From contig NZ_FOND01000010.1 in NCBI RefSeq assembly GCF_900112815.1, forward strand, positions 62,001-126,000: a stretch of DNA of 64,000 nt, given 5' to 3'. Both the position numbers and the translations under genes were made by a program. Below are positions 34,390 to 59,150 of this stretch, piece after piece (positions within the stretch are counted from its first letter, which is position 1; each line of letters begins with the position of its first letter). The notes beneath the pieces were generated by a model. It did not search any database. It was given only the letters and a program-made list of their open reading frames with translations, and was not told the DNA's origin. The DNA comes from Blastococcus tunisiensis (GTDB lineage: Bacteria; Actinomycetota; Actinomycetes; Mycobacteriales; Geodermatophilaceae).

Positions 34390-35832
34390 TCATTCCGCCG
34401 CGGCGGCAACCGGCGGAGTGTTCATCCGCACGTTCCCCGGTGGACGCGCGGGCAGGAGCGCCGCCGGGCTGCCGGCCCGGAGGGCGCCCCACCAGAGGCC
34501 GGCGCCGTAGGCGAGGTCGTCCAGCCGGCGGGCGAGGCCGAAACGGACCGGTCCTCCCCGCCCGCGGTGCGGCCACCACGCCGCCGCGGCGTCGGCCACG
34601 GCCGTCGCGAGCACCCACCGCCGGGCCCGCCGGGACAGCACCGCCGCGACCAGCGCCACGGGCCAGTGGTGCCGGGTTCCCGAGCGGGCCAGCGCCCGTC
34701 CGGACGCGCCCGCGCCCCGGGCGACGAGAAGGGCGGCGAACCCCACCGGCGGGCGCTCCCCCGGCGCGGCGAGCCGGGGGGCGAGTCGGGCGGTGGAGAT
34801 CCCGAGGATCCCCAGCGCGGCGATCCGGCACCACCGCCGTCCCGACAGCACGAGCGCCCAGGCCAGCGCCGTCTCCGGGGCGATGACGACCGGTGCGACC
34901 GCGCTGCCGTGGCGGGCGGCGAGCAGGGCGGCGCCGGTGCCGTAGAACGCCCGCCGGCGCAGCCACCCGGCCGTGGTCGCCGGGTGCTCGTGGGCCACCG
35001 CAGCCGCGGGCTCGTAGCGGACCCGCCACCCGGCTGCGTTCAGCCGCCAGACCAGGTCGACGTCCTCCGCGACCCGCATCGTCTCGTCGAAGCCGGACCC
35101 CAGGGCACCCCGTCGGACGAGCAGCGCGGCGCTGGGCACGTAGGAGACCGCCGACCCGGGCCGCACCGCGGCCGCCCGCGGGCCCATGTCGAGGGCACCG
35201 ACGGCAGCCTCGTAGCCGGCGAACCAGCCCGCGCCCCCCTCCAGCGGCACGATCCGCGGGGCGACGGCGGCCAGCCGCGGGTCCGCCAGGTGCGGCCGGA
35301 GCCGGGCCAGCCAGCCGGGACGCGGGACGACGTCGGAGTCGAGGAAGGCGACGAACGGCGTGGCCGCCGCGGCCAGGCCCGCGTTCCGGGCGGCCGCGGG
35401 ACCGCGCGCGGCGGGATGGCGGAGCACCTGCGCCCCGGGCGCGCGGACCGGGACGGCCGAGCCGTCGTCCACCACGACCACCGGCAGGCCCGCCGTCCCC
35501 GGATCGGCGCGCAGCGCCGCCAGCAGCCGGCGCAGCGCCGCGGGCCGGTCCCTGACCGGGACGACGACCGTGACGTCGTCCGCGGCCCGTGCGGGCAGCT
35601 CGGGACGGGCCAGGCCGGCGTCCAGCAGCCGGGCGGCGAGGGCCGCGGTCGTCGCGTCCCGCACCACCAGCCGGCCGTCGACGAGCAGCGTCCGGGCACG
35701 CGGGGCCAGCCGGACCAGGCGCAGCGGCGAGCCCCCGAGCAGCGCCGCACCGCCGTCCCTCGCGCGGGTCCGCTCGTCGAGCCGCACCACGAACCCGTCG
35801 GGCAGCCTCCCCTCGGGAGCGGACGGCGTCAC
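34390..35832 (-). CDS. mftF: mycofactocin glycosyltransferase
   Basis: A 480-residue GT2-family glycosyltransferase with C-terminal membrane segments. The N-terminal region has the MftF opening LPDGFVVRLDERTR; the GT-A core has VVVVDDGSAVP, ARNAGLAAAATPFVAFLDSD and FDETMRVAEDVDLVWRL. MftF adds a beta-1,4-glucose chain to mycofactocin. GTG at 35832 comes 12 bp after the DUF4386 gene, so both are probably one transcript under the TetR-type operators at 36580-36632. It is separated from other mft genes by several kilobases. Confidence 0.9.
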   Translation of the reverse strand: MTPSAPEGRLPDGFVVRLDERTRARDGGAALLGGSPLRLVRLAPRARTLLVDGRLVVRDATTAALAARLLDAGLARPELPARAADDVTVVVPVRDRPAALRRLLAALRADPGTAGLPVVVVDDGSAVPVRAPGAQVLRHPAARGPAAARNAGLAAAATPFVAFLDSDVVPRPGWLARLRPHLADPRLAAVAPRIVPLEGGAGWFAGYEAAVGALDMGPRAAAVRPGSAVSYVPSAALLVRRGALGSGFDETMRVAEDVDLVWRLNAAGWRVRYEPAAAVAHEHPATTAGWLRRRAFYGTGAALLAARHGSAVAPVVIAPETALAWALVLSGRRWCRIAALGILGISTARLAPRLAAPGERPPVGFAALLVARGAGASGRALARSGTRHHWPVALVAAVLSRRARRWVLATAVADAAAAWWPHRGRGGPVRFGLARRLDDLAYGAGLWWGALRAGSPAALLPARPPGNVRMNTPPVAAAAE

Positions 35833-38457: not shown

Positions 38458-39177
38458 TCAGGTCAGGCGGCCGGTGGGGTCCACCGACCAGGCGCGGGCC
38501 GCCGCGACGAGGCGGTCGGCCAGCTCCGCCAGCAGCGCCGCCCCCTCCTCGGCGGAGGCGCCGGCGGGGTCGCCCAGCACGCCGGTCGGGCTGACCCCGC
38601 GAACTCCCTCCGCCCGCAGTCGCGGGAGCAGGTCGCCGATCGGCGCCGTCTCCCCCGCCACCGCGCGCTCCTCCCGCACCTCAGCAGGTTCCACGTGCAA
38701 CATCAGTGACGTCTCGGTGCGCCCGGCGTGGGCGTCCCCGCCCCGCACCCCGCAGGGGAACCAGGCGACGTCCCGGCCCTCGGAGCGCAGCAGCGGGACG
38801 GCGGCCCGGAGCGCGTCGAGGTTCCCGCCGTGCCCGTTCACGATCAGCACCCGGCCGGCCCAGCGCCCGGCGGACCGGCCGTACTCGACGAGCAGGCCGG
38901 TGAGCGCCGCGGTGCCGATGGAGATCGTTCCGGGGAAGCCCTCGTGCTCACCGCTCGCCCCGTAGGCCAGGGCGGGCGCCAGGAGCGCGTCGTCCAGCGA
39001 TCCGACGGCCCCCTCCGCGACGGCGCAGGCGACCGACGTGTCCGTGCCCAGCGGCAGGTGGTGGCCGTGCTGTTCCACCGCCCCCAGCGGGACGACGAGC
39101 AGCGGCGCGTCGGGCAGCTCCGGCCACCGGGCTCCGGCGAGGGGCCGGACTCCCTGCCCACCTTCAGGGCGCCTCAC
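38458..39177 (-). CDS. mftE: mycofactocin creatininase-family peptidase
   Basis: A 239-residue creatininase-fold protein. Metal-site motifs are VPLGAVEQHGHHLPLGTDT near residue 30 and LIVNGHGGNLDAL near 110, as in MftE, which cleaves the modified MftA C-terminus to free the Val-Tyr-derived core. GTG at 39177 overlaps the ABC permease stop as GTGA, so it is the third gene of an exporter operon rather than part of mftABC. Start choice depends on that overlap. Confidence 0.9.
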   Translation of the reverse strand: MRRPEGGQGVRPLAGARWPELPDAPLLVVPLGAVEQHGHHLPLGTDTSVACAVAEGAVGSLDDALLAPALAYGASGEHEGFPGTISIGTAALTGLLVEYGRSAGRWAGRVLIVNGHGGNLDALRAAVPLLRSEGRDVAWFPCGVRGGDAHAGRTETSLMLHVEPAEVREERAVAGETAPIGDLLPRLRAEGVRGVSPTGVLGDPAGASAEEGAALLAELADRLVAAARAWSVDPTGRLT

Positions 39178-40058
39178 TCGGTGGTCCGGAACACCCGAGC
39201 TGCCAGCGAGATCAGGCCGAGGGTGATCACCGCGACCGCGAGCAGCTGCACCCCCACGGGCACCGCCCAGCCGAACCAGGTCAGGTGCGGCAGCAGCCGC
39301 TCCTGCTCGACCGCGGTCAGCGACAGGTGGTCGAGGGTGAAGTGCCGCATCGGCTGGACGACGTAGGTCAGCGGGTTGAGCCGGGTGAGCACGCTGAGCC
39401 AGTCGGGAAGGTTCGCGATCGGGAACAACGACCCCGACAGGAACATCATCGGCATGATCAGCAGCTGGCTGACCGGCATCGCCGCCTGGATCGTCTTGAT
39501 CCGCGTCGACAGCAGCACGCCCAGGGCGGTCAGCAGCAGCGCCCCGAGGAACAGGCAGCCGATCAGCGCGAGGATCAGCCCCGGCGCGTACGGGATGCCG
39601 ACGGTGCCGAGCAGGGCCAGCAGCACCAGGCTCTGCACCGTGGCCACGATGGCGCCGCCGAAGCACTTGCCCCAGATGATCGAGGCGCGGGAGATCGGCG
39701 CCACCATCATCTCGCGCAGGAAGCCGAACTCCCGGTCCCATACCAGCGAGATGCCGGCGAATGCGGCCGTGAACAGCACCGACGTCGCGAGCACGCCGGG
39801 GTAGAGGAACGTCCGGAAGCTGACGTCGCCGCCGGTGTCGACGATGCTGCCCAGCCCCGTGCCCATCACGAAGATGAACAGCACCGGCTGCAGCAGCATG
39901 GTCACCATGCGGGCCTTGTCCTGCCGGAGGCGCAGCAGCTCCCTCCGGGTGACCACCCAGGCGGCCCGCAACTGGTGGGACATGTCGCTGCGGACCTCGG
40001 GCAGCAGGTCGACCGGCCCTGCGGCGTCGGGGCGGGCCGTGGTGTCGCGGGACGCCAT
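39174..40058 (-). CDS. ABC-2 type exporter permease (DrrB-like)
   Basis: A 294-residue ABC-2 permease with about six helices. Typical segments are LLQPVLFIFVMGTGLGSIVD, FAGISLVWDREFGFLREMMV and PMMFLSGSLFPIANLPDWL, close to daunorubicin-resistance DrrB proteins. It forms the membrane path of an exporter whose substrate is unknown. ATG at 40058, one base after the ATPase stop; it overlaps mftE by 4 nt. Confidence 0.9.
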   Translation of the reverse strand: MASRDTTARPDAAGPVDLLPEVRSDMSHQLRAAWVVTRRELLRLRQDKARMVTMLLQPVLFIFVMGTGLGSIVDTGGDVSFRTFLYPGVLATSVLFTAAFAGISLVWDREFGFLREMMVAPISRASIIWGKCFGGAIVATVQSLVLLALLGTVGIPYAPGLILALIGCLFLGALLLTALGVLLSTRIKTIQAAMPVSQLLIMPMMFLSGSLFPIANLPDWLSVLTRLNPLTYVVQPMRHFTLDHLSLTAVEQERLLPHLTWFGWAVPVGVQLLAVAVITLGLISLAARVFRTTE

Positions 40059-42309: not shown

Positions 42310-44187
42310 TCAGGCGATCGGGCTGCCCTGCAGTCGCTCGATCGCCGGCGCGTGAGCCTGAGCCGGGATCCGCGCCCCGACGAGGTGAGCCCCCGCGCGG
42401 GCGGCCGGCTCCGGCCTGGCGAACAGGTAGCCCTGCGCCGAGCCGCAGTCGAGGTCGGCGAGCGCCCGTCGCTGCCCCTCGGTCTCCACGCCCTCGGCCA
42501 CGACGTCGAGGCCCAGTGTGCGAGCGAGCTCGACGATCGAGGTGATGAGGGTGACCGCCGAACGGCCCAGCGGCAGGTCGGTGACGAAGCTCCGGTCGAT
42601 CTTGATGATGTCCGCGGGCAGGTGCCGCAGGTAGGACAACCCCGAGAAGCCGGTGCCGAAGTCGTCGATGGCGATCCGGATGCCCAGGGCGCGCAGCGAA
42701 CCCAGCTGCGCCACCACGGCGTCCATGTTGCGGACGAGGACTCCCTCGGTGACCTCGAGCGTCAGCTGATCGGCGGGGAAGCCGGTCTCCGCCAGCGCCG
42801 CCACGACGTCGGCGGTGACGTCGCCGTCCTGGAACTGGCGCGGGGAGAGGTTCACGGCCATGCGGAGCGGATCGCCGGTCTCGGCCGTCCAGGCCGCACC
42901 CTGGCGCAGCGCCTCGTGCAGCACCCACCGGCCGATGCCGGTGATCGCCCCGGTCTCCTCGGCCAGGGGGATGAACTCGACCGGCGGCACCAGGCCGCGC
43001 TCGGGATGGTTCCAGCGCACCAGCGCCTCGAAGCCGGTGGTCCGGCCGTCGGTCAGGCGGACGGTCGGCTGGTAGTGGACCTCCAGCTGGCCGGCGTCGA
43101 CGGCGCTCTCGAGGTCCTGCGCCAGCCCCGCCCGGCGGCGGGCGGCCTCGGCCATCCCGTCGGCGTAGACGACGAGGCGGTTCTTGCCCTGGGCCTTGGC
43201 GAGGTACATGGCGAGGTCGGCATTGCGCAGCAGCGCGCCGGCCGTGCGGTCGGTGGAGTCCGCGGAGACGGCGACGCCGACGCTGCCGTGCACGGTGACC
43301 ATCCCGTCGGAGAGCGGGACCGGGAGCGACAGCGCCACGAGCGCGCGCTCACCCACCGCGCGGGCGACCTCGGCACCACCGTCGACCACGATGGCGAACT
43401 CGTCGCCACCGACCCGCGCGACGGCATCGCCCGGCCGGATGCAGCCCCGCAGCCGCTCGGCCAGCACGAGCAGGAGCTCGTCACCGGACGCGTGCCCGCG
43501 GCTGTCGTTGACCGCCTTGAAGTCGTCGAGGTCGATGAACAGGAGGCTCACCGCCCCACCCCGGGCCAGCAGGCGGTGGGTGATCTCCTCCAGCAGCGTC
43601 CGGTTGGCCAGGCCGGTCAGCGGGTCACTGAGCACCTGGTCCTCGTTCAGCCGCCAGGAGGCGAGGTGGGCGATGCTGGCGGCGAGCACGAAGGCGGCAT
43701 GGATGCCGGCCCAGACCCAGGGATCGTGCCGGGCATCGTGGCTGAACACCGCGTGCGGGTACATGGTGCCGAAGACGCCGTGGTGGACGACCACGACGAC
43801 GAGGGCGATGCCGTACGGGATCCAGTCCTGGTACAGCGAGACGACGCCGATGATCACGAAGAAGACGAAGTGCGCCTCGGTGACGCCGCTCCAGAGGTGC
43901 ACCAGGGCGACGGAGGCGGCCAGGAGACTCGCCGTCGTCGCGGCGGCGCGCGCTTTGCGGCCCAGCCGGGGGACCACGGCCGGGACCACCGGGCCTGCGA
44001 CGGCGGCGAGGACGGCGACGGCGGCCGGCTGACCGCCCCCCTGCAGCCACGCGACGAGCACCAGCAGACCCGCGGAGACCAGGCAGAGCCGGACGATGGC
44101 GCGGTGCCGCCGCTCCCAGACGGCCTCGGGCAGCAGGCGACCCTCGGGCAGCAGTCCGGCCAGCCGGTCGCACAGGCGGAGGATCAC
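42310..44187 (-). CDS. membrane GGDEF-EAL cyclic-di-GMP protein
   Basis: A 625-residue protein with about six N-terminal helices (for example LCLVSAGLLVLVAWLQGG and WIPYGIALVVVVVHHGVFG). A GGDEF domain with DPLTGLANRTLLEE and intact GGDEF follows, then an EAL domain with FEALVRWNHPERG, DDFGTGFSGLSYLR and EGVETEGQ. Both catalytic halves look intact, so it could make or break c-di-GMP. GTG at 44187 is the best start. It lies 59 bp after mftC on the same strand and may share that transcript. Confidence 0.85.
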   Translation of the reverse strand: MILRLCDRLAGLLPEGRLLPEAVWERRHRAIVRLCLVSAGLLVLVAWLQGGGQPAAVAVLAAVAGPVVPAVVPRLGRKARAAATTASLLAASVALVHLWSGVTEAHFVFFVIIGVVSLYQDWIPYGIALVVVVVHHGVFGTMYPHAVFSHDARHDPWVWAGIHAAFVLAASIAHLASWRLNEDQVLSDPLTGLANRTLLEEITHRLLARGGAVSLLFIDLDDFKAVNDSRGHASGDELLLVLAERLRGCIRPGDAVARVGGDEFAIVVDGGAEVARAVGERALVALSLPVPLSDGMVTVHGSVGVAVSADSTDRTAGALLRNADLAMYLAKAQGKNRLVVYADGMAEAARRRAGLAQDLESAVDAGQLEVHYQPTVRLTDGRTTGFEALVRWNHPERGLVPPVEFIPLAEETGAITGIGRWVLHEALRQGAAWTAETGDPLRMAVNLSPRQFQDGDVTADVVAALAETGFPADQLTLEVTEGVLVRNMDAVVAQLGSLRALGIRIAIDDFGTGFSGLSYLRHLPADIIKIDRSFVTDLPLGRSAVTLITSIVELARTLGLDVVAEGVETEGQRRALADLDCGSAQGYLFARPEPAARAGAHLVGARIPAQAHAPAIERLQGSPIA

Positions 44188-44246
44188 CCCCGGGCCATCG
44201 GCCGATCTGCCCCGCCGCTGAAGCGTGCTCCCCCTTCCGGGGTGGG

Positions 44247-45470
44247 TCAGCGCAGGTCGAGCCCGGCCAGCGGCGACTCGTCGCAGATCTTGCTCGGGAT
44301 GGACGGGATGCCGAGCAGCGTGGGCTGGCCGCGGACGGGGCCCTTGTGCGAGTGGTCGACGGAGCTGCGGGGGGTGACCAGGTCGAGGTCGCGGGCGGCC
44401 AGCGCCGTCTCCCCGTACCCCTGGACGCACTCGGGGTCGGGGCCGTCCAGCGGGAGACCGGTGAAGAACTTCGCCGCCATGCAGCCGCCCCGGCAGGCGT
44501 CGAAGTGCGCGCACTTCGTGCACGCGCCGCCGGTCTGCGGGTTGCGCAGGTCGGCGAAGAGCTCGGAGGACTGCCACACCCGCTGGAAGCCGCCCTCGTC
44601 GCGGACGTTGCCGGCCAGGAAGTTCTCGTGGATCGCGAACGGGCAGGCGTAGACGTCGCCGACCGGGTCGATCAGGCAGACCACCCGGCCGGCGCCGCAG
44701 AGGTTGAGGCCCGGGAGGGACTCCCCCAGCGCCGAGAGGTGGAAGAACGAGTCACCGGTGAGCACCTGGTCACCGTTGGCCAGCAGCCAGGCGTACAGCT
44801 CCCGCTGCTGGGCCTGCGTCGGGTGCAGCCGGTCCCAGACGTCGGCTCCGCGGCCCGACGGGCGGAAGCGGGTGATCCGCAGCTGCGCGCCGTAGCGGTC
44901 GGTCAGCGCCTTGAAGTCGTCGAGCTGCCCGGCGTTCTCCCGGGTGACGACGACGGAGACCTTGAAGTCCTTCATCCCGGCCTCGGCCAGGTTCTCCAGG
45001 GCCCGCGTGGCGGTGGCGAAGGAGCCGGTGCCACGGACGGCGTCGTTGACCTCGGCCGTGGCCCCGTCCAGGGAGATCTGGACGTCGACGTAGTCGGTGC
45101 GGGCCAGCTGCTGCGCCCGAGCCTTGTCGAGCTTGATGCCGTTGGTGGAGAACTTGACGCCGACGTCGTGGCCGATGGCGTAGTCGAGCAGGTGCCAGAA
45201 GTCGGGGCGCACCGTGGGTTCGCCACCGCCGACGTTGACGTAGAAGACCTGCATCCGCTGCAGCTCGTCGATGACCGCCTCGGCCTCGGCGGTGGACAGC
45301 TCGCGCGGGTCCCGCCGCCCCGAGGAGGACAGGCAGTGCACGCACGCCAGGTTGCAGGCGTAGGTGAGCTCCCACGTCAGGCAGATCGGGGCGTCCAGCC
45401 CGTACTCGAACTGGTCGACCAGCCGGCCGCCTACCGGGCGATCGCTGCGGGCGGGCAGAACGGCGGTCAT
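44247..45470 (-). CDS. mftC: mycofactocin radical SAM maturase
   Basis: A 407-residue radical SAM/SPASM enzyme. The SAM cluster Cys39, Cys43 and Cys46 (CNLACVHC) is followed by VGGGEPTVRPDF. SPASM cysteines are in LCGAGRVVC, YACPFA, TKCAHFDACRGGC and DPECVQG. MftC decarboxylates and cyclises the MftA Val-Tyr end. ATG at 45470 overlaps the mftB stop as ATGA. Confidence 0.95.
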   Translation of the reverse strand: MTAVLPARSDRPVGGRLVDQFEYGLDAPICLTWELTYACNLACVHCLSSSGRRDPRELSTAEAEAVIDELQRMQVFYVNVGGGEPTVRPDFWHLLDYAIGHDVGVKFSTNGIKLDKARAQQLARTDYVDVQISLDGATAEVNDAVRGTGSFATATRALENLAEAGMKDFKVSVVVTRENAGQLDDFKALTDRYGAQLRITRFRPSGRGADVWDRLHPTQAQQRELYAWLLANGDQVLTGDSFFHLSALGESLPGLNLCGAGRVVCLIDPVGDVYACPFAIHENFLAGNVRDEGGFQRVWQSSELFADLRNPQTGGACTKCAHFDACRGGCMAAKFFTGLPLDGPDPECVQGYGETALAARDLDLVTPRSSVDHSHKGPVRGQPTLLGIPSIPSKICDESPLAGLDLR

Positions 45471-45766
45471 GCGGTCCTTCTCTCGATCATCTGGGAACGG
45501 GCGAGATCGGCGAGCGCCTTCACGTAGGCCGGCCGCTGGGCCTCGGTCACGCCACAGGCCACCAATGTGGCCGTCGCGGTGGGGTGGTCGGCCAGCGACT
45601 CCACGACCGCGACCAGCGTCCTCGACTTCAGGAAGGAGAGCTTCCGGTTGCCGAAGTGGTAGACCAGCGCGCCGAACGGCTCGGGCCGCAGCGCGACCGA
45701 GCGGGCCTTCTGCCAGGGCGCCGACGCGTCGAACTCCACGGCGGGCGGTGCCGCAGCGGGGGACAT
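45467..45766 (-). CDS. mftB: mycofactocin precursor-binding chaperone
   Basis: A 99-residue RRE (PqqD-like) protein. The family core ARSVALRPEPFGALVYHFGN and LSFLKSRTLVAVVESLADH is present. It binds the MftA peptide and delivers it to MftC. ATG at 45766, with GTG 45769 also possible; no strong ribosome-binding site is seen in the 13 bp after mftA, so translation is probably coupled to it. Confidence 0.9.
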   Translation of the reverse strand: MSPAAAPPAVEFDASAPWQKARSVALRPEPFGALVYHFGNRKLSFLKSRTLVAVVESLADHPTATATLVACGVTEAQRPAYVKALADLARSQMIERRTA

Positions 45767-45779
45767 CACCGACCGTCGG

Positions 45780-45893
45780 TCAGTAGACGCCGCACATGCC
45801 GTCGATGGAGACCTCTTCCACCAGCGACTCCTCGACCACCGTCTCCTCGACTGCGGGGGTCTCGTTCTCGACGTCCTGGACGGGCTCGGGCAT
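45780..45893 (-). CDS. mftA: mycofactocin precursor peptide
   Basis: A 37-residue peptide, too short for many gene finders. The leader is Glu/Val-rich (MPEPVQDVENETPAVEE) and the C-terminus is IDGMCGVY, the near-invariant mycofactocin core whose Val-Tyr pair becomes the cofactor. ATG at 45893 has AGGAG 6 nt upstream. Its promoter carries the candidate MftR site, and mftB and mftC follow at once. Confidence 0.95.
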   Translation of the reverse strand: MPEPVQDVENETPAVEETVVEESLVEEVSIDGMCGVY

Positions 45894-45933
45894 GGCGTCT
45901 CCTGGTGAACTGGGTCACGGACAGATGCCGTTC

Positions 45934-45962
45934 ACGGTAATGGCACCCGGTGCCACCGACAA
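45934..45962 (-). promoter_or_regulatory. mftABC promoter with candidate MftR operator
   Basis: TTGTCG (minus strand of 45957-45962) and TACCGT (45934-45939) stand 17 bp apart. The spacer contains the palindrome TGGCAC-CCG-GTGCCA (45941-45955). The same arms recur at the mftD promoter (46703-46717). Confidence 0.7.
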
Positions 45963-46026
45963 CACCGGCGGGCGACTACCGCCCTGCCCGGCCCCGCGGG
46001 CGGCACCGACCGGCGAAGATGGGGCG

Positions 46027-46623
46027 GTGAGCGAGACGGCGGTGGCTGCCCAGCCGCGGGACGGCGCCCGGAGCCGGGCCGAGCGGGCGGCCCTGGACCT
46101 GTTCACCTCCCGCGGCTTCGAGCACGTGACGAGCGACGAGGTCGCCGATTCGGCGGGGATCAGCCGGCGCACGTTCTTCCGCTACTTCGCCACCAAGGCC
46201 GACGCGGTGTGGGGGGACTTCGCCGGCCACGTGGCACGCCTGGAGCAGTTGCTCACCGCGACGGGCGACGCCGGGCCGGTGCTCGCCACGGTGTGCGCCG
46301 CCTACGTCGAGGTCAACGACTACCCGGACGCCGAGCTGCCGCTGCTGCGCGAGCGCATGCAGCTGATCCTGGCCGAGCCGGCGCTGCTCGCGCACTCCCA
46401 GCTGCGCTTCGCCGAGGTGGACCTGGTCGTCGCGCGGTACGTCGCGCGACGCACGGGGGACACCCCTACGGCACTGGTGCCGCGCCTGGTGGCCGCGACC
46501 ACCCGCGCCGCCGCCACGACGGCGTTCGAGGCCTGGCTCACCGACGCGCGCACCCCGCTGACCCAGTACCTGCACCAGGCCTTCGACGAGATGGCGGCCG
46601 GGTTCCCCGGCCTGCGCCGCTGA
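46027..46623 (+). CDS. mftR: mycofactocin TetR-type regulator
   Basis: A 198-residue TetR protein of the MftR group. The HTH is GFEHVTSDEVADSAGISRRT followed by FFRYFATKADAVWGDF, a typical MftR motif. In mycobacteria MftR represses mft genes and responds to long-chain acyl-CoA. GTG at 46027 is taken as start; the open frame back to 45796 is antisense to mftA. It is divergent from mftABC, with the candidate operator between. Confidence 0.9.
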   Translation: MSETAVAAQPRDGARSRAERAALDLFTSRGFEHVTSDEVADSAGISRRTFFRYFATKADAVWGDFAGHVARLEQLLTATGDAGPVLATVCAAYVEVNDYPDAELPLLRERMQLILAEPALLAHSQLRFAEVDLVVARYVARRTGDTPTALVPRLVAATTRAAATTAFEAWLTDARTPLTQYLHQAFDEMAAGFPGLRR

Positions 46624-46697
46624 CCCGCACCCACCCCCCGATGGCCGCGCTCGGCGATCCGGCGCAGCCCATGTGGCGGCCGTCTCACCGCCCGGAC

Positions 46698-46717
46698 TAG
46701 CATGGCACTGAGTGCCA
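46698..46717 (+). promoter_or_regulatory. mftD promoter -10 with candidate MftR operator
   Basis: TAGCAT (46698-46703) resembles a -10 box and runs into TGGCAC-TGA-GTGCCA (46703-46717), the same palindrome as at mftA. No clear -35 is visible. Confidence 0.65.
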
Positions 46718-46774
46718 CCGGCCGTCGAGGGCCGGCCACGAGCCCGCGGAACGGGCTCCCGAGGAGGTCTGACG

Positions 46775-48010
46775 ATGGCAAGTACCTGGTTCGAATCCGT
46801 CGCCGAGGCGCAGCGCCGGGCGAGGAAGCGGCTGCCCAAGGGCGTGTACGGCGCGCTGGTGGCCGGCTCCGAACGCGGGCTGACCGTCGAGGACAACCTG
46901 GCCGCCTTCGCCGAGCTCGGCTTCGCCCCGCACACCGCCGGTCTGGCCAACGAGCGGAACACGGCCGTCACGGTCATGGGCCAGTCCCTGTCGATGCCGG
47001 TGCTGATCAGCCCGACCGGCGTGCAGGCCGTGCACCCCGACGGCGAGGTCGCCGTCGCCCGCGCCGCGGCCGCCCGCGGGGTGGCGATGGGGCTGTCCTC
47101 GTTCGCCAGCAAGCCGATCGAGGAGGTCGTCGCGGCCAACCCGCAGACCTTCTTCCAGATGTACTGGGTCGGCACGCGCGAGGAGATGCTGGCCCGCATG
47201 GACCGCGCCAGGCGGGCCGGCGCCGTGGGCATGATCGCCACCCTCGACTGGTCGTTCGCCTACGGCCGCGACTGGGGGAGCCCCTTCATCCCGGAGAAGA
47301 TCGACTTCGAGGCGGCCCGCCGGTACGCGCCGCAGGTGCTGGTCAAGCCCCGCTGGCTGCTCGACTTCGCGAGGACCGGGAAGATCCCCGACCTCACCGT
47401 GCCGAACATGGTGGCGAACCCCGGCGACCCGGCGCCGACCTTCTTCGGGGCCTACGGGATGTGGATGCAGTCGCCGATGCCGACCTGGGAGGACGTCGCC
47501 TGGCTGCGCGAGCAGTGGGACGGCCCGTTCATGCTCAAGGGCGTCATGCGGGTCGACGACGCCAAGCGCGCCGTCGACGCCGGCGTCACGGCCATCTCGG
47601 TCTCCAACCACGGCGGCAACAACCTGGACGGCACTCCTGCGTCGATCCGCGCGCTGCCGTCGGTCGCCGCGGCCGTGGGCGACCAGGTCGACGTGCTCCT
47701 GGACGGCGGCATCCGCCGCGGTGGCGACGTCGCCAAGGCCCTGGCCCTGGGAGCGAAGGCCGTGATGATCGGCCGGGCCTACCTGTGGGGCCTCGGGGCC
47801 AACGGCCAGGCCGGCGTGGAGAACGTCCTCGACCTGCTCCGCGACGGGCTCGGTTCGGCGATGACCGGCCTCGGCCGCGCGGACGTCTCCGCGCTCAGCC
47901 GCGACGACCTGGTCATCCCCGAGGGCTTCGAACGCCGGCTCGGGGACGTCGCCGTCGCCAACGCCCTGCTGGGCACCTCGCCGGCCCGCGCGCGCAGCCG
48001 GGAGGCCTGA
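46775..48010 (+). CDS. mftD: mycofactocin FMN dehydrogenase
   Basis: A 411-residue FMN alpha-hydroxy-acid dehydrogenase-type enzyme. SNHGGNNLDGTPASIRALP holds the catalytic His region; LLDGGIRRGGDVAKALALGA and MIGRAYLWGLGA bind FMN. MftD oxidatively deaminates the cyclised intermediate to give premycofactocin. ATG at 46775 follows GAGGAGG at 7 nt. It is on the opposite strand to mftABC and converges with the IclR gene. Confidence 0.93.
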   Translation: MASTWFESVAEAQRRARKRLPKGVYGALVAGSERGLTVEDNLAAFAELGFAPHTAGLANERNTAVTVMGQSLSMPVLISPTGVQAVHPDGEVAVARAAAARGVAMGLSSFASKPIEEVVAANPQTFFQMYWVGTREEMLARMDRARRAGAVGMIATLDWSFAYGRDWGSPFIPEKIDFEAARRYAPQVLVKPRWLLDFARTGKIPDLTVPNMVANPGDPAPTFFGAYGMWMQSPMPTWEDVAWLREQWDGPFMLKGVMRVDDAKRAVDAGVTAISVSNHGGNNLDGTPASIRALPSVAAAVGDQVDVLLDGGIRRGGDVAKALALGAKAVMIGRAYLWGLGANGQAGVENVLDLLRDGLGSAMTGLGRADVSALSRDDLVIPEGFERRLGDVAVANALLGTSPARARSREA

Positions 48011-50476: not shown

Positions 50477-51598
50477 TCACACGTGCGGGTCGATGAGCGG
50501 CTTCAGGACACCGCGCTTCATCGACTGCATGGCGTCGGTGACCCCGTCCAGCCCGACGGGCGCGGTCACGAGCGCGTCCCAGTCGACGGAGTCCCGGGTC
50601 TGGCGGAGGAAGTCCAGGGCCTTCCAGTAGTGGCCCGCGTGGGCCGAGAGGACGCCCCGGACGGTGAGCTGCTTGCGGACGAGCAGACTCGGGTCCATCG
50701 TGAGGTCGACCGCGCTGGTCTGCCCGGCGACGCCGTACCGGCCGCCCGGCCGGAGCAGGTCCAGGCCCTCCCCGAAGGCCGACCGTGCGCCGGAGAGCTC
50801 CAGCACGACATCGGCGCCGCGCCCGTCCGGGGTCAGCCGGCGCACTGCCTCGTCACGCTCCCGCGGGTCCGGCAGGTGCTCCACCGACACGGTCCCGGTC
50901 GCCCCGTAGGCCGTCGCGAGCTCGAGCCGGCCGTCGGGAGCGCCGATCACGACAACGGTGCCCACCCCGAGGGAGCGGAGCATCGCCGTCGCGTAGAGGC
51001 CCAGCGGTCCTGCTCCCTGGACGACCACGCACTCGTGGGGCTGGATAGTCCCCACCTGCTCCAGCACGTGCACGACGGTGCGCAGGGCGCAACTCGCCGG
51101 GGCGGCCCAGGCGTCCGGCACCTCGTCGGGGACCCGGACCCGGCCCGACCCCGGGAAGACGTAGCAGTACTCCGCGAAGCCCCCGGTCAGGTGGGGGAAG
51201 GCGGAGGCGGGCAGCCGTCCGTAGCTCCGGCGGCCCGAGCAGAGCGAGGGCTGACGCTCGATCGTGCAGTAGAAGCACTGCCCGCACGGCGCGTGCGTCC
51301 ACACCACCCGGTCACCGACCTCCACCGGCCGGCCGAGCGAGTCGGTGCGCGGGCCGTCGCCGAAGGCGACGATCTCCCCCACCATCTCGTGGCCCATCAC
51401 CTGCGGCAGGTTCGCGGCGCTCGCAGTGAAGGCCCCGCCGTCCCAGATGTGCACATCGGTGCCGCACACCGATGCCATGGTGACGCGCACCAGGAGCGCT
51501 CCCGGCTCGAGTTCCGCGGGCACGGGGACGTCCTCGACGGCAACTGGCCGGCCGAACGCGCGCAGCAGCGCCGCGCGGCTCGATGACGGGATACGCAC
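50477..51598 (-). CDS. Zn-dependent dehydrogenase
   Basis: A 373-residue medium-chain dehydrogenase. The catalytic zinc motifs are SVCGTDVHIWDG and GHEMVGEI; structural cysteines are in CGQCFYCTIERQPSLC. The NAD site is VVVQGAGPLGLYATAML. The substrate is not known, but its place between the dioxygenase and ALDH genes suggests a pathway alcohol or diol. GTG at 51598 has GAGAGGA about 7-8 nt upstream. Confidence 0.9.
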   Translation of the reverse strand: MRIPSSSRAALLRAFGRPVAVEDVPVPAELEPGALLVRVTMASVCGTDVHIWDGGAFTASAANLPQVMGHEMVGEIVAFGDGPRTDSLGRPVEVGDRVVWTHAPCGQCFYCTIERQPSLCSGRRSYGRLPASAFPHLTGGFAEYCYVFPGSGRVRVPDEVPDAWAAPASCALRTVVHVLEQVGTIQPHECVVVQGAGPLGLYATAMLRSLGVGTVVVIGAPDGRLELATAYGATGTVSVEHLPDPRERDEAVRRLTPDGRGADVVLELSGARSAFGEGLDLLRPGGRYGVAGQTSAVDLTMDPSLLVRKQLTVRGVLSAHAGHYWKALDFLRQTRDSVDWDALVTAPVGLDGVTDAMQSMKRGVLKPLIDPHV

Positions 51599-51694
51599 GC
51601 AGTGGTCCTCTCGGGTGAGCACGGGCGGTGGCGCCCCGACGGACCTCCTCCCGCCCGCGGGTGACGACGGGAGGAGGCCTGGTGGCGGGCGACC

Positions 51695-52228
51695 TCAGAC
51701 GAAGATGGAGAGGTTCTTCGCCAGGAGGACGGACTGGTCGAGCAGCAGCTCCCGTCGCACGACGTGCCAGGAATCACCGACCTGGCGCAGCCGGTCCTTG
51801 CGCCGGCCGACCAGGAAGTCGGTCTCGTCCGCCACCCGGTTCCGGTACACCAGGAAGCGGCAGCTCACCGCGACCTCGGGCAGCTCGACGGCGTCGAGCC
51901 GGATGTTGGTCACCAGGTGCGAGATCCGGGACACCGGTTCCTCCGCCCAGTGGAGGCCCGTGTTCAGCTGGTCGACGCGGAGGGACATCGTCTCCTTGCC
52001 TTCGTCGAACCAGCAGATTTCCCGGCCGGCACGCGTCTCCTCACGCGCATCCGTCTCCCCGAAGGCGACGTTCATCCGGAGCGGCACCGAGTACTGGTAG
52101 TCCTCGGCGAGCATGTCCAGCCACTCCGTGTACCGCCGCTCGTCGAGCAGATCGGCCTCCCGGTACAGGAATTCGGACACGCTCTCGCGCAGGAGCATCC
52201 GCTCGAGCAGGGCCTCGTCTATCGGCAT
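51695..52228 (-). CDS. ring-hydroxylating dioxygenase beta subunit
   Basis: A 177-residue SnoaL-fold beta subunit. FLYREADLLDERRYTEWLDM and EDYQYSVPLRMN are family-typical, as is the C-terminal RRELLLDQSVLLAKNLSIFV. The subunit stabilises the alpha3-beta3 dioxygenase and can influence substrate choice. ATG at 52228 has AAAGGA 6 nt upstream and follows the alpha gene by 29 bp. Confidence 0.92.
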   Translation of the reverse strand: MPIDEALLERMLLRESVSEFLYREADLLDERRYTEWLDMLAEDYQYSVPLRMNVAFGETDAREETRAGREICWFDEGKETMSLRVDQLNTGLHWAEEPVSRISHLVTNIRLDAVELPEVAVSCRFLVYRNRVADETDFLVGRRKDRLRQVGDSWHVVRRELLLDQSVLLAKNLSIFV

Positions 52229-52257
52229 GGCAGTCCTTTCGTGGAGTGGTGGTGGTC

Positions 52258-53748
52258 CTACTGCGCGGGGGGGCCGTCGACGACGTCGACGGCGTCGAGG
52301 ACCTTGACGCCCTCGGCGACGTCGGTGACGACGGCATCGCGTTCCGTGGCGCGGTCGTCGACCCGGGCGAGCTCGGTGAGCTCCGGCCACGAGAGGTTGT
52401 CGACGAACTCCGCCCAGCGCCGGTAGAAGGCGCGGGCGTTGACCTCGCCGGCGATGGCGTGGTGCGAGTGCACGGAGCCGTCCAGGTCACTGGCGGTCTC
52501 CTGACCGAGCCCCTGCTGGTAGTTGTAGGGATAGCGCCGGGCGACGACGCCCCGGCTGGCCTCGGTGGCGTAGTCCCAGTTCTCCATGTCGTCCTGCTCG
52601 GTCATCCCGGCCGGACCCGCGTAGCGCATGTAGTAGTGACGCAGCCAGTCGCGCACCTTCTCGGGCGCGGACTTGTCCACCAGGTACCAGCGCCACACCT
52701 CGGTCTCGGTGGGGCTGATCGGGTGCGCGACCAGGATGGTCCGCGGAAAGCCCGCGGCGAAGGACATGTTCGGGAAGAGCGTCGCCGGACCCCGGCCGCC
52801 CAGCAGCCGCCCCTCCGCCTGCAGCTTCTCCTTGCGCTTCTCCCATGCGGCGACGAAGTACTCGTCGAGCTCGGCCTCCTCGAACTCCGGGTACGGGATC
52901 TCGTAGGCGAGGTTGTCCGACGCACCGTGCCCGCGCCGGAAGGAGGTCTTCATCCGGCCCTTCGAGAATCCACCCTCGTTCTGACGCTCGCCGTGACGCC
53001 GCTTGCCCTTCCCGCCCGGGCCGATGCCGACGGCCTCGACCGAGGCGTGGGTGGAGGCGCCGTGGTAGGTGTCGCCGAGGAAGTTCTCCGAGACGAACTT
53101 CCAGTTCGACCGGATCCGCCACTTGTGCACGCCGCGGAAGGCCTCGGTGCCGCCCTCGGTGCCGTCGAAGGCGTCGGCCAGGTTGTCCAGCCACCAGTGG
53201 AAGTCACCGACGTACTCGTCGAACGACGGCGCCTCCGGGTCCCAGTTGGCGAAGACCAGGCCTTTGTAGTTGTGCACCTGGGCGGCGCGCACCAGCCCCC
53301 ACTTCTCCCGCTCCAGGTTGGTGCCGTACGCCGCCTTCTGCTGCGGGACACCGTGCAGCGCGCCGGGAGTGTCGACCAGCGAGCCGTCGATCGAGTACGA
53401 CCAGGCGTGATAGGGGCAGGTGAACTGGAGGGTGTTGCCCTCGTCGTAGCGGCAGACGCGCATGCCTCGGTGCCGGCACGAGTTCAGCAGGACGTTCAGC
53501 TCGCCCTTGTCGTCCCGGGTCAGCAGGACGGGGTCGGCCCCCATCCACGAGGAGAAGAAGTCCCCGGGCTCGGGCACCTGCGTGGCGTGGCCGACGAACA
53601 ACCAGGCCCGCGGGAACAGGTTCTCCAGCTCGTTCTTGAAGATCTGCTCGTCGATGAAGATCTCGCGGCTGATCTCGCCGTTCTTGACGTCGACCAGGTT
53701 CCGCACCTGCGGAGCACCGGTACGGGTGGGCTCTTCGACTGTCGTCAC
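52258..53748 (-). CDS. Rieske ring-hydroxylating dioxygenase alpha subunit
   Basis: A 496-residue alpha subunit. The Rieske ligands are Cys91, His93, Cys111 and His114 (SCRHRGMRVC, TCPYHAW). The mononuclear iron ligands are Asp226-bridge, His229 and His234 (DTYHGASTH). It is somewhat longer than naphthalene- or benzoate-type subunits, with a basic segment near residues 245-275 (KGKRRHGERQ, KTSFRRGHGAS). It dihydroxylates an aromatic ring using electrons from the upstream ferredoxin. GTG start at 53748 with GAGGAGGA upstream. Confidence 0.93.
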   Translation of the reverse strand: MTTVEEPTRTGAPQVRNLVDVKNGEISREIFIDEQIFKNELENLFPRAWLFVGHATQVPEPGDFFSSWMGADPVLLTRDDKGELNVLLNSCRHRGMRVCRYDEGNTLQFTCPYHAWSYSIDGSLVDTPGALHGVPQQKAAYGTNLEREKWGLVRAAQVHNYKGLVFANWDPEAPSFDEYVGDFHWWLDNLADAFDGTEGGTEAFRGVHKWRIRSNWKFVSENFLGDTYHGASTHASVEAVGIGPGGKGKRRHGERQNEGGFSKGRMKTSFRRGHGASDNLAYEIPYPEFEEAELDEYFVAAWEKRKEKLQAEGRLLGGRGPATLFPNMSFAAGFPRTILVAHPISPTETEVWRWYLVDKSAPEKVRDWLRHYYMRYAGPAGMTEQDDMENWDYATEASRGVVARRYPYNYQQGLGQETASDLDGSVHSHHAIAGEVNARAFYRRWAEFVDNLSWPELTELARVDDRATERDAVVTDVAEGVKVLDAVDVVDGPPAQ

Positions 53749-53820
53749 TTGCTCGTCCTCCTCTGTCGGGGGGTGGTCATGTCGGGATCGGGTGGGACGG
53801 GGATGCGCGGGGCCGCGGGG

Positions 53821-55074
53821 TCAGCCGACCGGAACGGGGGTGGCCGCGGTGGCGAGGGCGGACAGCCGGCCGGTGACCTGCGCGAGGTCCTCCCCCCGCT
53901 CCCAGGCCTGGCGGCAGGCCACGACGGCGCGCGGCCAGCCGAGGACGACGGCGGCCGAGAAGCCGCCGTCGCGGGAGTAGAGCGCGACGTCCTTCTCCCC
54001 GGCCGACGTGGTGCAGCGCAGGAAGCTCACCCGGTCGTCGGGGTGGATGCGCCCGACCATCTGGATCTTCAGACCGTGCTGGTCGGACCAGAAGTACGGC
54101 GCCTTCACGTGCGGACGCAGCTCGTCGGGGTGCAGCAGGTTGTGCGCCACGAGGTTGGCCTGCTCGACCGCGTTGGTCCAGTGCTCCACGAGGCGGTGCT
54201 CCCCGCTGCGCACGTCGAACCAGCGCGCGACGTCACCGACGGCGTACACGTCCGGCGCGCCGGATGCACGGCAGTACTCGTCGGTCAGCACGCCGCGGTC
54301 GAGGTCGAGACCGGAGTCCTCCAGCCACCGCGTGGCCGGGACCACACCGATGCCCACCACGACGGTCGCCGCCGGCAGCCGCCGGCCGTCGGCCAGGTGC
54401 ACGACACCGGTGCCGTCGGCCAGCGACTCCACCCGGGCGACCGCCGCCGAGCCCAGGACCGAGACCCCCGCGTCGGCGTGCAGCCGGCCGATCCGAGCGG
54501 CCACCTCGGAGCCGAGAGCCCGGGCGAACGGCTCCGGGAGCGCCTCGACGATCGTGACCTCCAGCCCCAGCTGCCGGGCACTGGAGGCCACCTCTGCACC
54601 GATGAAACCGCTGCCCACGACGACGACGGGACCACCACGGGAGAACTGCGCCCGGATGGCCTCGCTGTCCCGCAGTTCGCGAACGGTCCGGACCAGCGAG
54701 CCTTCGGGGGCCGGGATGCTCCGGGGGTGCGCGCCCGTGGCCAGCACGACGGCGTCGTAGGCCACCGGCTCGCCGTCGGACAGGATCACCTGCTTGCCGA
54801 CCGGGTCCAGCCGCGCCGCGGCGCGGCCCAGCACCGGCGTCAGGCCGTCGCCCGCCCAGCCGCCGGGACCGAGCAGCGGGATGTCGCCGGCGCTCTGGTC
54901 GCCCACGAGCACCTGCTTGGACAGCGGGGGCTTGTCGTAGGGCGCGACATCCTCCGCGCCGACGAGCACCACCTCGCCGGTATGGCCCGCGGCCCGGAGG
55001 GCCTGCCCGGTCCGGATCCCACCGACCGAGCTGCCGACGACGACGACCCGGCCGGGGATCCGGTCAGCCGTCAT
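53821..55074 (-). CDS. FAD-dependent ferredoxin reductase
   Basis: A 417-residue reductase of the rubredoxin/ferredoxin reductase type. The FAD motif is VVVVGSSVGGIRTGQAL, the NAD motif VVVVGSGFIGAEVASSA, and DVYAVGDVARW is the second FAD contact. It passes electrons from NAD(P)H to the ferredoxin and then the dioxygenase. ATG at 55074 lies 11 nt inside the ferredoxin gene end. The gene is 72 bp from the alpha subunit. Confidence 0.92.
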   Translation of the reverse strand: MTADRIPGRVVVVGSSVGGIRTGQALRAAGHTGEVVLVGAEDVAPYDKPPLSKQVLVGDQSAGDIPLLGPGGWAGDGLTPVLGRAAARLDPVGKQVILSDGEPVAYDAVVLATGAHPRSIPAPEGSLVRTVRELRDSEAIRAQFSRGGPVVVVGSGFIGAEVASSARQLGLEVTIVEALPEPFARALGSEVAARIGRLHADAGVSVLGSAAVARVESLADGTGVVHLADGRRLPAATVVVGIGVVPATRWLEDSGLDLDRGVLTDEYCRASGAPDVYAVGDVARWFDVRSGEHRLVEHWTNAVEQANLVAHNLLHPDELRPHVKAPYFWSDQHGLKIQMVGRIHPDDRVSFLRCTTSAGEKDVALYSRDGGFSAAVVLGWPRAVVACRQAWERGEDLAQVTGRLSALATAATPVPVG

Positions 55075-55264
55075 GATCGGCCAGCCAGACGGCCTGCACC
55101 GGGCAGCTGCGCACCGCGGCGCCGGACTTCTCCAGCTCGGCCTCGTCCACGGAGGTCCGCAGCAGGACGACCAGGCCGTCGTCGTCCAGGTCGAAGTGCT
55201 CCGGGTCCAGGTCGACACAGTTGCCGTAGCCCTGGCACTTGCCCACGTCCGCCTTGATCTGCAT
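55064..55264 (-). CDS. single-cluster ferredoxin with CxxYxxC motif
   Basis: A 66-residue ferredoxin. Ligands Cys10 and Cys16 flank Tyr13 in KCQGYGNC, and Cys54 precedes Pro55 in SCPVQAV: the C-x2-X-x2-C-xn-CP pattern of actinobacterial 3Fe-4S (sometimes 4Fe-4S) ferredoxins, with Tyr at the variable place. These usually serve P450s; here the neighbour is a Rieske dioxygenase. ATG at 55264 has GGAG about 9 nt upstream. First gene of the operon. Confidence 0.9.
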   Translation of the reverse strand: MQIKADVGKCQGYGNCVDLDPEHFDLDDDGLVVLLRTSVDEAELEKSGAAVRSCPVQAVWLADHDG

Positions 55265-55314
55265 GAGGTCGATCTCCGTACTCGTCCGGCACTGGGGGTC
55301 TGCGGCAGTGATGC

Positions 55315-55330
55315 GCCGCTGATCAGCGGC
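55315..55330. repeat. perfect 16-bp palindrome in the ferredoxin leader
   Basis: GCCGCTGATCAGCGGC lies in the 5' untranslated region of the ferredoxin operon, 50 bp upstream of its ATG. It may be a regulator site, for example for the IclR protein, or an RNA hairpin. Confidence 0.45.
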
Positions 55331-55364
55331 CTGTGCGACGCCGGCCGAGGCCGAAACCCGCACG

Positions 55365-55417
55365 TTGTGCAAATGGTCTGTCCAATATACCGTAAGAGTG
55401 GCCGCGGTCACTGTCAA
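55365..55417. promoter_or_regulatory. overlapping divergent promoters with GntR-type site
   Basis: Minus strand: TTGACA (55412-55417), 17 bp, TACGGT (55389-55394) for the ferredoxin-dioxygenase operon. Plus strand: TTGTGC (55365-55370), 17 bp, TACCGT (55388-55393) for the MFS gene. The two -10 boxes overlap by five bases. TGGTCTGTCCA (55374-55384), similar to FadR/GntR sites, fills the plus-strand spacer and falls at the minus-strand start site. Confidence 0.7.
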
Positions 55418-55460
55418 CCGTGCAGCCGGACATCCCGTCGTCGTGGAGAGGAGCCGCCGC

Positions 55461-56618
55461 ATGGCCGGAGCGCCGCAGGAGGGCGGAGGCGCCGCCCGCC
55501 GGGACGCGGTCGCCAGCCTGGCCGGGGCGGTGATCTTCGCCGTCGGACTCGGCATCGCCAGCGTCGCCGTGCCGCTGCTGGCGCTGCGGGTCGGCTATTC
55601 GGCCCCCGAGGTCGGGATCCTCGTCGCACTGTCCGCGGCGTCCCAGATGGGCACGCGGATCTTCATGGGCGCGATGATGCGACACCTGCCCGACAAGGTC
55701 TTCGTCGTCGTGGCGGCCGCCTCCCTCGCGGCGTCCTGCGGAGTCCTGGTGCTCTCGACCACGTGGCTGCTCTTCGCGGTGTCCCAGCTGCTCCAGGGCC
55801 TGGCCCGGGCCTTCTTCTGGACCGGCACGCAGACCCACGCCGTCCGCATGTCCGATTCCGCGGTCGGCGCGCTCGCGCGGGTCAACCTGGCCTCCGGCCT
55901 GGGGCAGATCGCCGGCCCACTGATGGCCGGGCTGCTCATCACCCGGTCGCCGCAACTGGCACTGGGGGTAGCCGCGGCCGTCAGCGCGCTGGGCGTGTTC
56001 AGCGCCCTGCTGCTCACCCGGCTCGCCCCCTTCGCCGCGCGCAGCAAGGACCGCAGCCGGGTCCAGGTCTGGCGGCGCCCGGGGGTGGACGTCGCCTGCT
56101 GGGCCGGCGCCAGTGCCGGTGCCTGGCGCGGGCTGCTCGGGTCCTACGTCCCGGTGGCCCTGGAGCACGCCCGGCAGAGCTCGACGACGATCGGCGCCCT
56201 CGTGGCCGTGGCCAACGGCGCCCAGGTGGCCGGCAGCGCGGTCGCGGGCCGGCTGCGCGGCGCCGGGCTGCGCCTGTCCCTGGTGCTGGGCGTCCTCGCC
56301 AGCGGCATCGGCATCGCGGTGGTCGGGCCGCTCGCCGGCGCGGCTGTGCTCTGCGCCGTCGCGCTGTGCGTCTCGGGGATCGGGGCGGGCGCGCTGCAGA
56401 CGGTGGGTCCCGCCGTCGCCACCGACGCCGTCCACCCCGAGGAACGCGGCGAGGCGATCGCGTCGGCGGGCACGTTCCGGGCGGCGGCCCTCCTGCTGGC
56501 GCCGTTCGCCGTCGCGGGCCTGGTGACCGTCATTCCGCTCAGTGCCGCCATTCTCACCGCCGGGCTGCTCATCACCGCTCCTGCGGTGGGCGTGGGCCGG
56601 CTCCGCCCGGCGGGCTGA
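55461..56618 (+). CDS. MFS transporter
   Basis: A 385-residue, 12-helix MFS protein. Segments include VASLAGAVIFAVGLGIASVA, GIASVAVPLLALRVGYSAPE and FFWTGTQTHAVRMSD. It does not match a substrate-defined subfamily by eye. ATG at 55461 has GAGAGGAG about 8 nt upstream. It shares a promoter region with the dioxygenase operon and precedes the gntR gene, so uptake or efflux of a pathway compound is likely. Confidence 0.82.
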   Translation: MAGAPQEGGGAARRDAVASLAGAVIFAVGLGIASVAVPLLALRVGYSAPEVGILVALSAASQMGTRIFMGAMMRHLPDKVFVVVAAASLAASCGVLVLSTTWLLFAVSQLLQGLARAFFWTGTQTHAVRMSDSAVGALARVNLASGLGQIAGPLMAGLLITRSPQLALGVAAAVSALGVFSALLLTRLAPFAARSKDRSRVQVWRRPGVDVACWAGASAGAWRGLLGSYVPVALEHARQSSTTIGALVAVANGAQVAGSAVAGRLRGAGLRLSLVLGVLASGIGIAVVGPLAGAAVLCAVALCVSGIGAGALQTVGPAVATDAVHPEERGEAIASAGTFRAAALLLAPFAVAGLVTVIPLSAAILTAGLLITAPAVGVGRLRPAG

Positions 56619-56710
56619 CCCCCGTGCCCACCAGGAAGGGACACTTGTCACCTGCGAGTCCGGTCCGTCCGGGTGCAGTAGCGTCCGCGCTGGATGAGAG
56701 GAGACGGGCC

Positions 56711-57427
56711 GTGAGTGAAGGCTCCGCCCCATCCAACGCCGGGTTGTTCCAGCCGGTCGCGGTCGGACGCATCTCGCAGGCGATCGTCGACCAGGTACGA
56801 GCGCTGATCCGCACCGGCGAGCTGGCCATCGGCGCCCGGCTGCCGTCCGAGCGGGAGCTCTGCGAGAGGTTCGGGGTCAGCCGGGTGACCGTGCGGGAGG
56901 CCTTGCGGGTGCTCGAGGCGAACGGCCTGATCGAGATCCGCGTCGGCTCACGGGGTGGCGCTTTCGTGACCGCTCCCACGACCGGGCGGATCGGCGAGGG
57001 AATCACCGATCTGCTCAGCATGTCCGCGCTGTCGGCGGCCGAGGTGACCGAGGCCCGCGTCGTGTTCGAGCTGGGCGTCGTGCCCCTGGTGTGCGAGCGC
57101 GCCACCGACGAGGAACTCGACGAGTTGATGGCGCTGTGCGACGAGGCGGCGCGGGCGCGGGAGGGAGGGACCTACACGGTGACGATGTCCTTCGACTTCC
57201 ATCTCCGGGTCGCGGCCGCGGCGCACAATCCCGCACTGGTCATGCTCATGCGCTCGTTGCGCGAGCCTGTGCTGATGTCCCTGCGCGAGGCGCAGCACGA
57301 GGGCCGCCAGGGCGTCGCGGAGCACCGCACGTTCGTCGAGGCCGTCCGGGCCCGCGACGCCGACCGCGCGCAGCGGGTCATGGCCGAGCATCTCCAGCGG
57401 ACCGCCCGCCGCGTCGCCGGGCGCTGA
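56711..57427 (+). CDS. GntR/FadR-type (FCD) regulator
   Basis: A 238-residue regulator. The winged HTH is LPSERELCERFGVSRVTVRE followed by ALRVLEANGLIEIRVGSRGG; the FCD effector domain has metal-site residues in FDFHLRVAAAAHNP and EHRTFVEAVRARD. FCD regulators usually sense organic acids. GTG at 56711 has GAGGAG 7 nt upstream. The TGGTCTGTCCA site at the divergent promoters is its most likely target. Confidence 0.9.
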   Translation: MSEGSAPSNAGLFQPVAVGRISQAIVDQVRALIRTGELAIGARLPSERELCERFGVSRVTVREALRVLEANGLIEIRVGSRGGAFVTAPTTGRIGEGITDLLSMSALSAAEVTEARVVFELGVVPLVCERATDEELDELMALCDEAARAREGGTYTVTMSFDFHLRVAAAAHNPALVMLMRSLREPVLMSLREAQHEGRQGVAEHRTFVEAVRARDADRAQRVMAEHLQRTARRVAGR

Positions 57428-57436
57428 GCCGGCTGG

Positions 57437-57471
57437 CCGCCGGGGACGGACCGAGGCCCGATCCCCGGCGG
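57437..57471. terminator. bidirectional terminator hairpin
   Basis: CCGCCGGGGA (57437-57446) and TCCCCGGCGG (57462-57471) form a perfect 10-bp stem with a 15-nt loop in the 48-bp gap between convergent gntR and the class II aldolase gene. Confidence 0.65.
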
Positions 57472-57475
57472 TGAG

Positions 57476-58237: not shown

Positions 58238-58239
58238 GG

Positions 58240-59127: not shown

Positions 59128-59150
59128 GACGCTTCCTCCCGACCAAGCCA

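Follow-up and report, generated by a model that had tools for sequence, protein, structure and literature searches.

In TetR-family systems such as those of KstR, FasR and the like, a short palindrome is repeated at the promoters of one pathway, and some of these regulators respond to acyl-CoA. For mycofactocin, an operator of the TetR-type regulator MftR at mftA is already known from M. smegmatis: a footprint is described with a single protected 27-bp region upstream of mftA, the palindrome in it (Omft) is conserved in other mycobacteria, and MftR overexpression lowers mft transcripts (PMC8728441). The same report mentions, as data not shown, that in vitro binding by MftR was unimpeded by substitution of single bases in the palindrome, so more than the core may matter, and it calls the MftR regulatory network likely incomplete (PMC8728441). 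In M. tuberculosis a regulon of about 50 genes without a clear pathway was proposed for Rv0691c (MftR) (PMC6398593), and a search for palindromic motifs in mycobacteria reports weak significance for this mftR orthologue (4.6e-2; PMC4482099). Enzymes of the TIGR03971 and TIGR03989 families are described as depending on mycofactocin (PMC3023750). The points of interest are when mycofactocin is made and which enzymes are switched on alongside it.

Here we analysed a window of 64,000 nucleotides from Blastococcus tunisiensis (Geodermatophilaceae), meaning the whole stretch of DNA at its full length. It holds a mycofactocin locus in which mftA and mftR are divergent and mftD follows mftR, with the following features:

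34390-35832, minus strand: mftF reading frame
38458-39741, minus strand: mftE reading frame
44247..45470, minus strand: mftC, radical SAM maturase (TIGR03962, E 4.6e-196)
45467..45769, minus strand: mftB, chaperone (TIGR03967, E 4.1e-33)
45780..45893, minus strand: mftA, mycofactocin precursor, 37 aa (TIGR03969, E 1.6e-12, above the cut-off)
45934..45939, minus strand: predicted mftA -10 box, TACCGT (TANNNT conserved after the site)
45941..45955, no strand: predicted operator O(A), TGGCACCCGGTGCCA, exact match inside the mftA promoter spacer
45957..45962, minus strand: predicted mftA -35 box, TTGTCG (TTG conserved before the site)
46027..46623, plus strand: mftR, TetR-family regulator, 198 aa (TIGR03968, 224.1 bits)
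46698..46703, plus strand: predicted mftD -10 box, TAGCAT (last base common to O(D))
46703..46717, no strand: predicted operator O(D), TGGCACTGAGTGCCA, exact match whose first base is the last of the mftD -10 box
46775..48010, plus strand: mftD, pre-mycofactocin synthase (TIGR03966, E 4.2e-208)

For TIGR03968 the curated cut-off is 224.9 bits; mftR falls 0.8 bits short of it, and 76 of 112 Geodermatophilaceae genomes have a match that exceeds it. The name of mftR is supported by its position beside mftA and by its best solved relative by sequence, PDB 8x0a, which is named MftR (E 1.2e-33). Other genes separate mftE and mftF from mftC, at a distance of 5-10 kb, and the window search gave no site within two mismatches upstream of either. 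A frame for a GGDEF-EAL protein (42310-44577, minus strand) adjoins mftC on the same strand. A generic sigma-70 scan of 45700-46900 found no promoter, and the hexamers predicted at mftA and mftD rest on conservation.

The initial annotation had proposed that palindromes with identical arms, TGGCAC-N3-GTGCCA, stand at the mftA and mftD promoters on either side of mftR and form an MftR operator that unites the two halves of the locus. The pattern is indeed found at 45941-45955 and 46703-46717, exact at all twelve named positions, and both copies are intergenic: O(A) lies in the divergent gap between mftA and mftR, 71 bases upstream of the mftR start codon, and O(D) in the gap between mftR and mftD. 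Each spans 15 bp, a single central base flanked by palindromic arms of 7 bp (TGGCACC-C-GGTGCCA for O(A), TGGCACT-G-AGTGCCA for O(D)). The seventh arm base is C/G at mftA and T/A at mftD, so identity of the arms holds for the outer six bases only. At mftA the palindrome sits, as had been claimed, within the spacer, here 17 bp between TTGTCG and TACCGT on the minus strand. At mftD it does touch the -10 box TAGCAT, but by an overlap of one base rather than by abutment.

To place the mftA site in a wider frame we searched 112 Geodermatophilaceae genomes, 92 of which have an MftR match (E<=1e-30). At 91 of 93 family mftR loci a site of at least 10/12 lies upstream of mftA (25 score 12, 57 score 11 and 9 score 10), and the two misses, L010 and L079, retain a GTGTCA half-site beside the -10 box. 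Five of these 93 loci have no mftA hit; they were scored from mftB and are dropped in counts over 88 loci. Alignment covered 87 mftA promoters, that is the 88 minus L010, which scores below 10/12, all of them chosen for having the site. In all 87 TTG starts 7 or 8 bases before the site and TANNNT follows 0-2 bases after it, with the site between -35 and -10 throughout. Palindromes with scrambled arms (n=179) reached the same 10/12 before mftA at 2.6 of the 88 loci on average; the highest count, 23, came from one that is a shifted version of the motif. Outside the family we took 50 loci, the 30 best-scoring and 20 picked for variety, of which 12 had no mftA hit and were left unscored; a site of at least 10/12 precedes mftA in 35 of the 38 readable ones, where a single hit at 10/12 counts for little, because the same score is seen in 6% of 270-bp coding windows. 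In the class as a whole MftR was detected in 97 of 394 sampled genomes. A Blastococcus-like mftR was also seen in SPQJ01000002.1 (L358), titled Bacillus sp. AZ43 (unverified), whose label looks wrong. The 15-base centre of the M. smegmatis footprint, taken from the sequence given in PMC8728441, matches 11 of the 12 positions of TGGCAC-N3-GTGCCA.

The mftD site is conserved as well. The gene was found in 101 of the 112 family genomes, and 97 of its 115 copies have a site of at least 11/12 upstream, a score that 5 of 797 270-bp coding windows reach and for which scrambled-arm palindromes (n=179) gave a mean of 0.18 of 115 and a maximum of 8. MftR and mftD occur together in 89 genomes, and in every one of them a site of 11-12/12 precedes one mftD copy or more, the best being 12/12 in 66 and 11/12 in 23. 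Of the 18 copies that lack a site, nine are additional copies in nine MftR-positive genomes, each of which has another copy with the site, and nine belong to genomes without detected MftR. In two genera (g2 and g10) and most of g1 mftD lies near mftR and the site is present; in g3, g4, g8, g11 and most of g9 mftD lies outside the mftR locus and the site is still kept. In G042, for instance, a single contig carries mftR at 2.41 Mb and, at 4.87 Mb, mftD. This persistence where mftD is far from mftR supports the proposal that the site joins the two halves of the locus. The distance from site to mftD start is 26-141 bp. Among 97 aligned mftD promoters, 63 have a TANNNT whose last base is the first T of the site and 34 have none that ends there; in these, judged by eye, the site can stand elsewhere relative to the likely promoter, with its letters kept. 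Beyond the site only two alignment columns exceed 0.8 bit. Separately, several relatives (L143, L150, L171) show by eye a second inverted repeat, approximately TGTGG...CCACA, near the mftD -35 region, which might be an activator site.

Outside the family, where mftD follows mftC on the same strand by 24-225 bp, there is no site before it in eight of eight loci (7-9/12), and none was found at mftD of L263 (8/12), in which no mftC was found. At L246, where mftD is detached, the score is 10/12, which is weak alone. In the family the operator is present upstream of an mftD that forms a separate unit and does not stand behind mftC, and the mftD site suggests that a gene which departed from its operon stayed under the same control because an operator copy went with it.

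The sites also co-occur with the regulator. In twelve family genomes mftD is present and no MftR was detected at E<=1e-30; mftC was found in nine of them. None of these nine has a site at mftD (7-8/12), nor do the eight with a readable mftA upstream have one there (7-9/12); in the ninth, G072, the contig end truncates this region. The three remaining genomes (G037, G095 and G097), in which no mftC was found, have a 12/12 site at mftD; their assemblies are incomplete (88%, 70% and 72%), and the mft locus may be missing from them.

Sequence, promoter geometry, conservation and co-occurrence with MftR are all observed. Together with the match to the M. smegmatis operator they support the operator reading of the initial annotation, and very probably the TetR-type repressor MftR, whose gene lies between O(A) and O(D), uses both as its operators. 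In the mechanism that we infer, which takes in MftR binding, repression, ligand and a dehydrogenase branch, an MftR dimer at O(A) in the mftA spacer would keep RNA polymerase off the -35 and -10 boxes and so hold back mftA-mftB-mftC, and might also lower expression of mftR itself from the divergent side. At O(D) a dimer would lie over the last part of the mftD -10 box together with the start region, blocking mftD. A ligand, which by analogy with M. smegmatis MftR could be a long-chain acyl-CoA, would release MftR, and precursor, chaperone, maturase and pre-mycofactocin synthase would come on together. Although mftD is a separate transcription unit in this family, its own operator copy would preserve this co-regulation.

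The binding protein could instead be another TetR regulator with the same recognition helix, namely an MftR-like paralogue acting alone or in competition with MftR. At five of 16 paralogue loci (L101, L104, L106, L115 and L116, the paralogues 35-42% identical) an exact palindrome stands 100-161 bp upstream of the region of the paralogue that matched, and in the seven aligned sequences the paralogues beside an exact palindrome have a recognition helix the same or nearly the same as that of MftR (GISRRTFFRYF or GIGRRTFFRYF). Related TetR proteins could therefore share the operator code. A close variant of the helix (GISRRTLFRYY or GIARRTLFRYY) occurs in three mftR of another family of the same order (f2), probably mycobacteria to judge from their operators. 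However, the B. tunisiensis genome has one TIGR03968 match at E<=1e-30, it is mftR that lies between the two sites, and the sites are absent where mft genes are found and MftR is not, so that we regard this explanation as unlikely. Two genomes of the set hold a second mft locus (L113 in G086, L081 and L088 in G105), and that of G086 adjoins an MftR-like paralogue.

MftR might also bind these sites and act as an activator, or control its own gene only, with no repression of mftA or mftD. From its location between divergent mftA and mftR, O(A) could serve either gene, but the positions are those of a repressor, with O(A) filling the spacer and O(D) overlapping the -10 box, O(D) is retained when mftD is far from mftR, and the overexpression result reported for M. 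smegmatis goes in the direction of repression (PMC8728441); this leaves activation or self-control quite improbable. Both palindromes are perfect inverted repeats overlapping predicted promoter boxes and could be nucleic-acid structures (a hairpin or a terminator) or parts of the core promoter rather than operators. Against this, O(A) lies upstream of the expected mftA transcription start, the mftD site shifts relative to TANNNT between genomes with its letters kept, and a scan of 45700-46900 found no terminator-like site; we give such a role very little credence.

As to rarity, under a first-order Markov model with the composition of the window 0.0065 exact sites are expected per 64 kb window and 0.51 per genome, and the probability of at least two in the window is about 2e-5. 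The 5.04 Mb genome (43 contigs) has two exact sites, both at the mft locus, and six more with one mismatch, so the motif does not recur at random throughout the genome. The pattern read backwards, used as a control, is equally frequent with two exact genome matches, and exceeds the real one when up to one mismatch is allowed (21 vs 8). With a control as common as the motif the raw counts are unconvincing, and it is promoter position and conservation that convince. Across the 112 family genomes there are 164 exact sites against 50 for the control. A chance origin, for which only the backward control speaks, is of negligible probability given the model expectation for two sites in one window and the conservation at both promoters.

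The window has no third exact site. Near-matches lie at 35694-35708 (two mismatches), within mftF, and at 51755-51769 (one mismatch). We considered the latter as an operator of the adjoining alcohol dehydrogenase (50477-51622) and rejected it, taking it as chance because it lies inside a frame that matches a ring-hydroxylating dioxygenase beta-subunit. The region 51695-59146, with ring-hydroxylating dioxygenase parts and a match to 3,4-dihydroxyphthalate decarboxylase, is probably an aromatic degradation cluster. At the one-mismatch sites L004-L007 none of five frames tried had a Pfam match.

Returning to MftR as the probable regulator of both sites, we asked where else the proposed operator stands. 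Of the 164 exact family sites 25 are at mftA and 72 at mftD. A further 15 or more, spread over 14 genomes, stand no further than about 130 bp upstream of alcohol dehydrogenase matches, counted as NDMA-type matches or as orthologues of an alcohol dehydrogenase of B. tunisiensis (G000:C42:68855-69967); for the dehydrogenases of L196, L207 and L215 a TIGR03989 match over the cut-off was confirmed. Three exact sites precede genes for mycofactocin-coupled SDRs, at L205 and L106 by profile and at L206 by reading of the sequence, and at L106 the SDR stands on the other side of the palindrome from the paralogue. Near other exact family sites there are frames that match an acyl-CoA dehydrogenase or a transposase, or that match nothing. 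B. tunisiensis itself has a third copy matching 11/12, CGGCACCCGGTGCCA at G000:C42:68829-68843 (L008 1501-1515), which ends 11 bases before the presumed ATG of the NDMA-type alcohol dehydrogenase just named (457 bits). Among the best 30 family matches to this enzyme, itself included, five have a site of at least 11/12, two have 10 and 23 have fewer, so the dehydrogenase branch is patchy. The best 30 TIGR03989 matches among alcohol dehydrogenases of relatives include ten at 10/12 and none at 11 or above, which is no more than suggestive. B. tunisiensis has two further NDMA-type alcohol dehydrogenase genes over the cut-off, C15:130426 and C29:75557, both lacking a site with best scores of 8 and 7 of 12, and no TIGR03971 SDR was found in its genome at E<=1e-60.

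The same operator at some mycofactocin-linked dehydrogenase genes probably makes a small MftR regulon in trans. More tentatively, and with doubt slightly outweighing belief, MftR could be a trans-acting master switch in the family, with its operator at mftABC, at detached mftD and at the enzymes that use the cofactor (NDMA-type alcohol dehydrogenases and mycofactocin-coupled SDRs) and with paralogues sharing the code; the alcohol dehydrogenase at G000:C42:68855-69967 would then be the third regulon member in B. tunisiensis. An operator of this kind, which accompanies mftD and tags certain dehydrogenases, offers a sequence handle on the clients of mycofactocin in actinobacteria.

In the titles and abstract openings of the literature on mycofactocin, MftR and Rv0691c, a scope that left subscription papers mostly outside, we found no report that places an operator before a detached mftD or before client dehydrogenase genes, and as far as this search reaches both are new. 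The locus looks like a clear case of an operon that was split with its regulation kept by an extra copy of the operator.

From the point of view of known systems, KstR- and FasR-type control differs in both regulator and pathway, and the FasR model matches mftR weakly (30.6 bits, cut-off 330). The mft loci with mftD inside the operon, as described for MTB (PMC8728441) and as found at the eight loci outside the family, have the same genes and the mftA site upstream, whereas in B. tunisiensis mftD stands apart from mftABC, on the opposite strand. The nearest likeness is to Omft of M. smegmatis, which has the same core GGCA-N5-TGCC upstream of mftA with a TIGR03968-type regulator nearby. The outer T and A of Omft (T-N2-GGCA...TGCC-N2-A) are by eye absent at O(A) and O(D), which would weaken a claim of identity with the mycobacterial consensus but not the proposed function as MftR operators. 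The main difference is that one protected region, at mftA, is described for Omft (PMC8728441), whereas here a second copy stands at the separately transcribed mftD.
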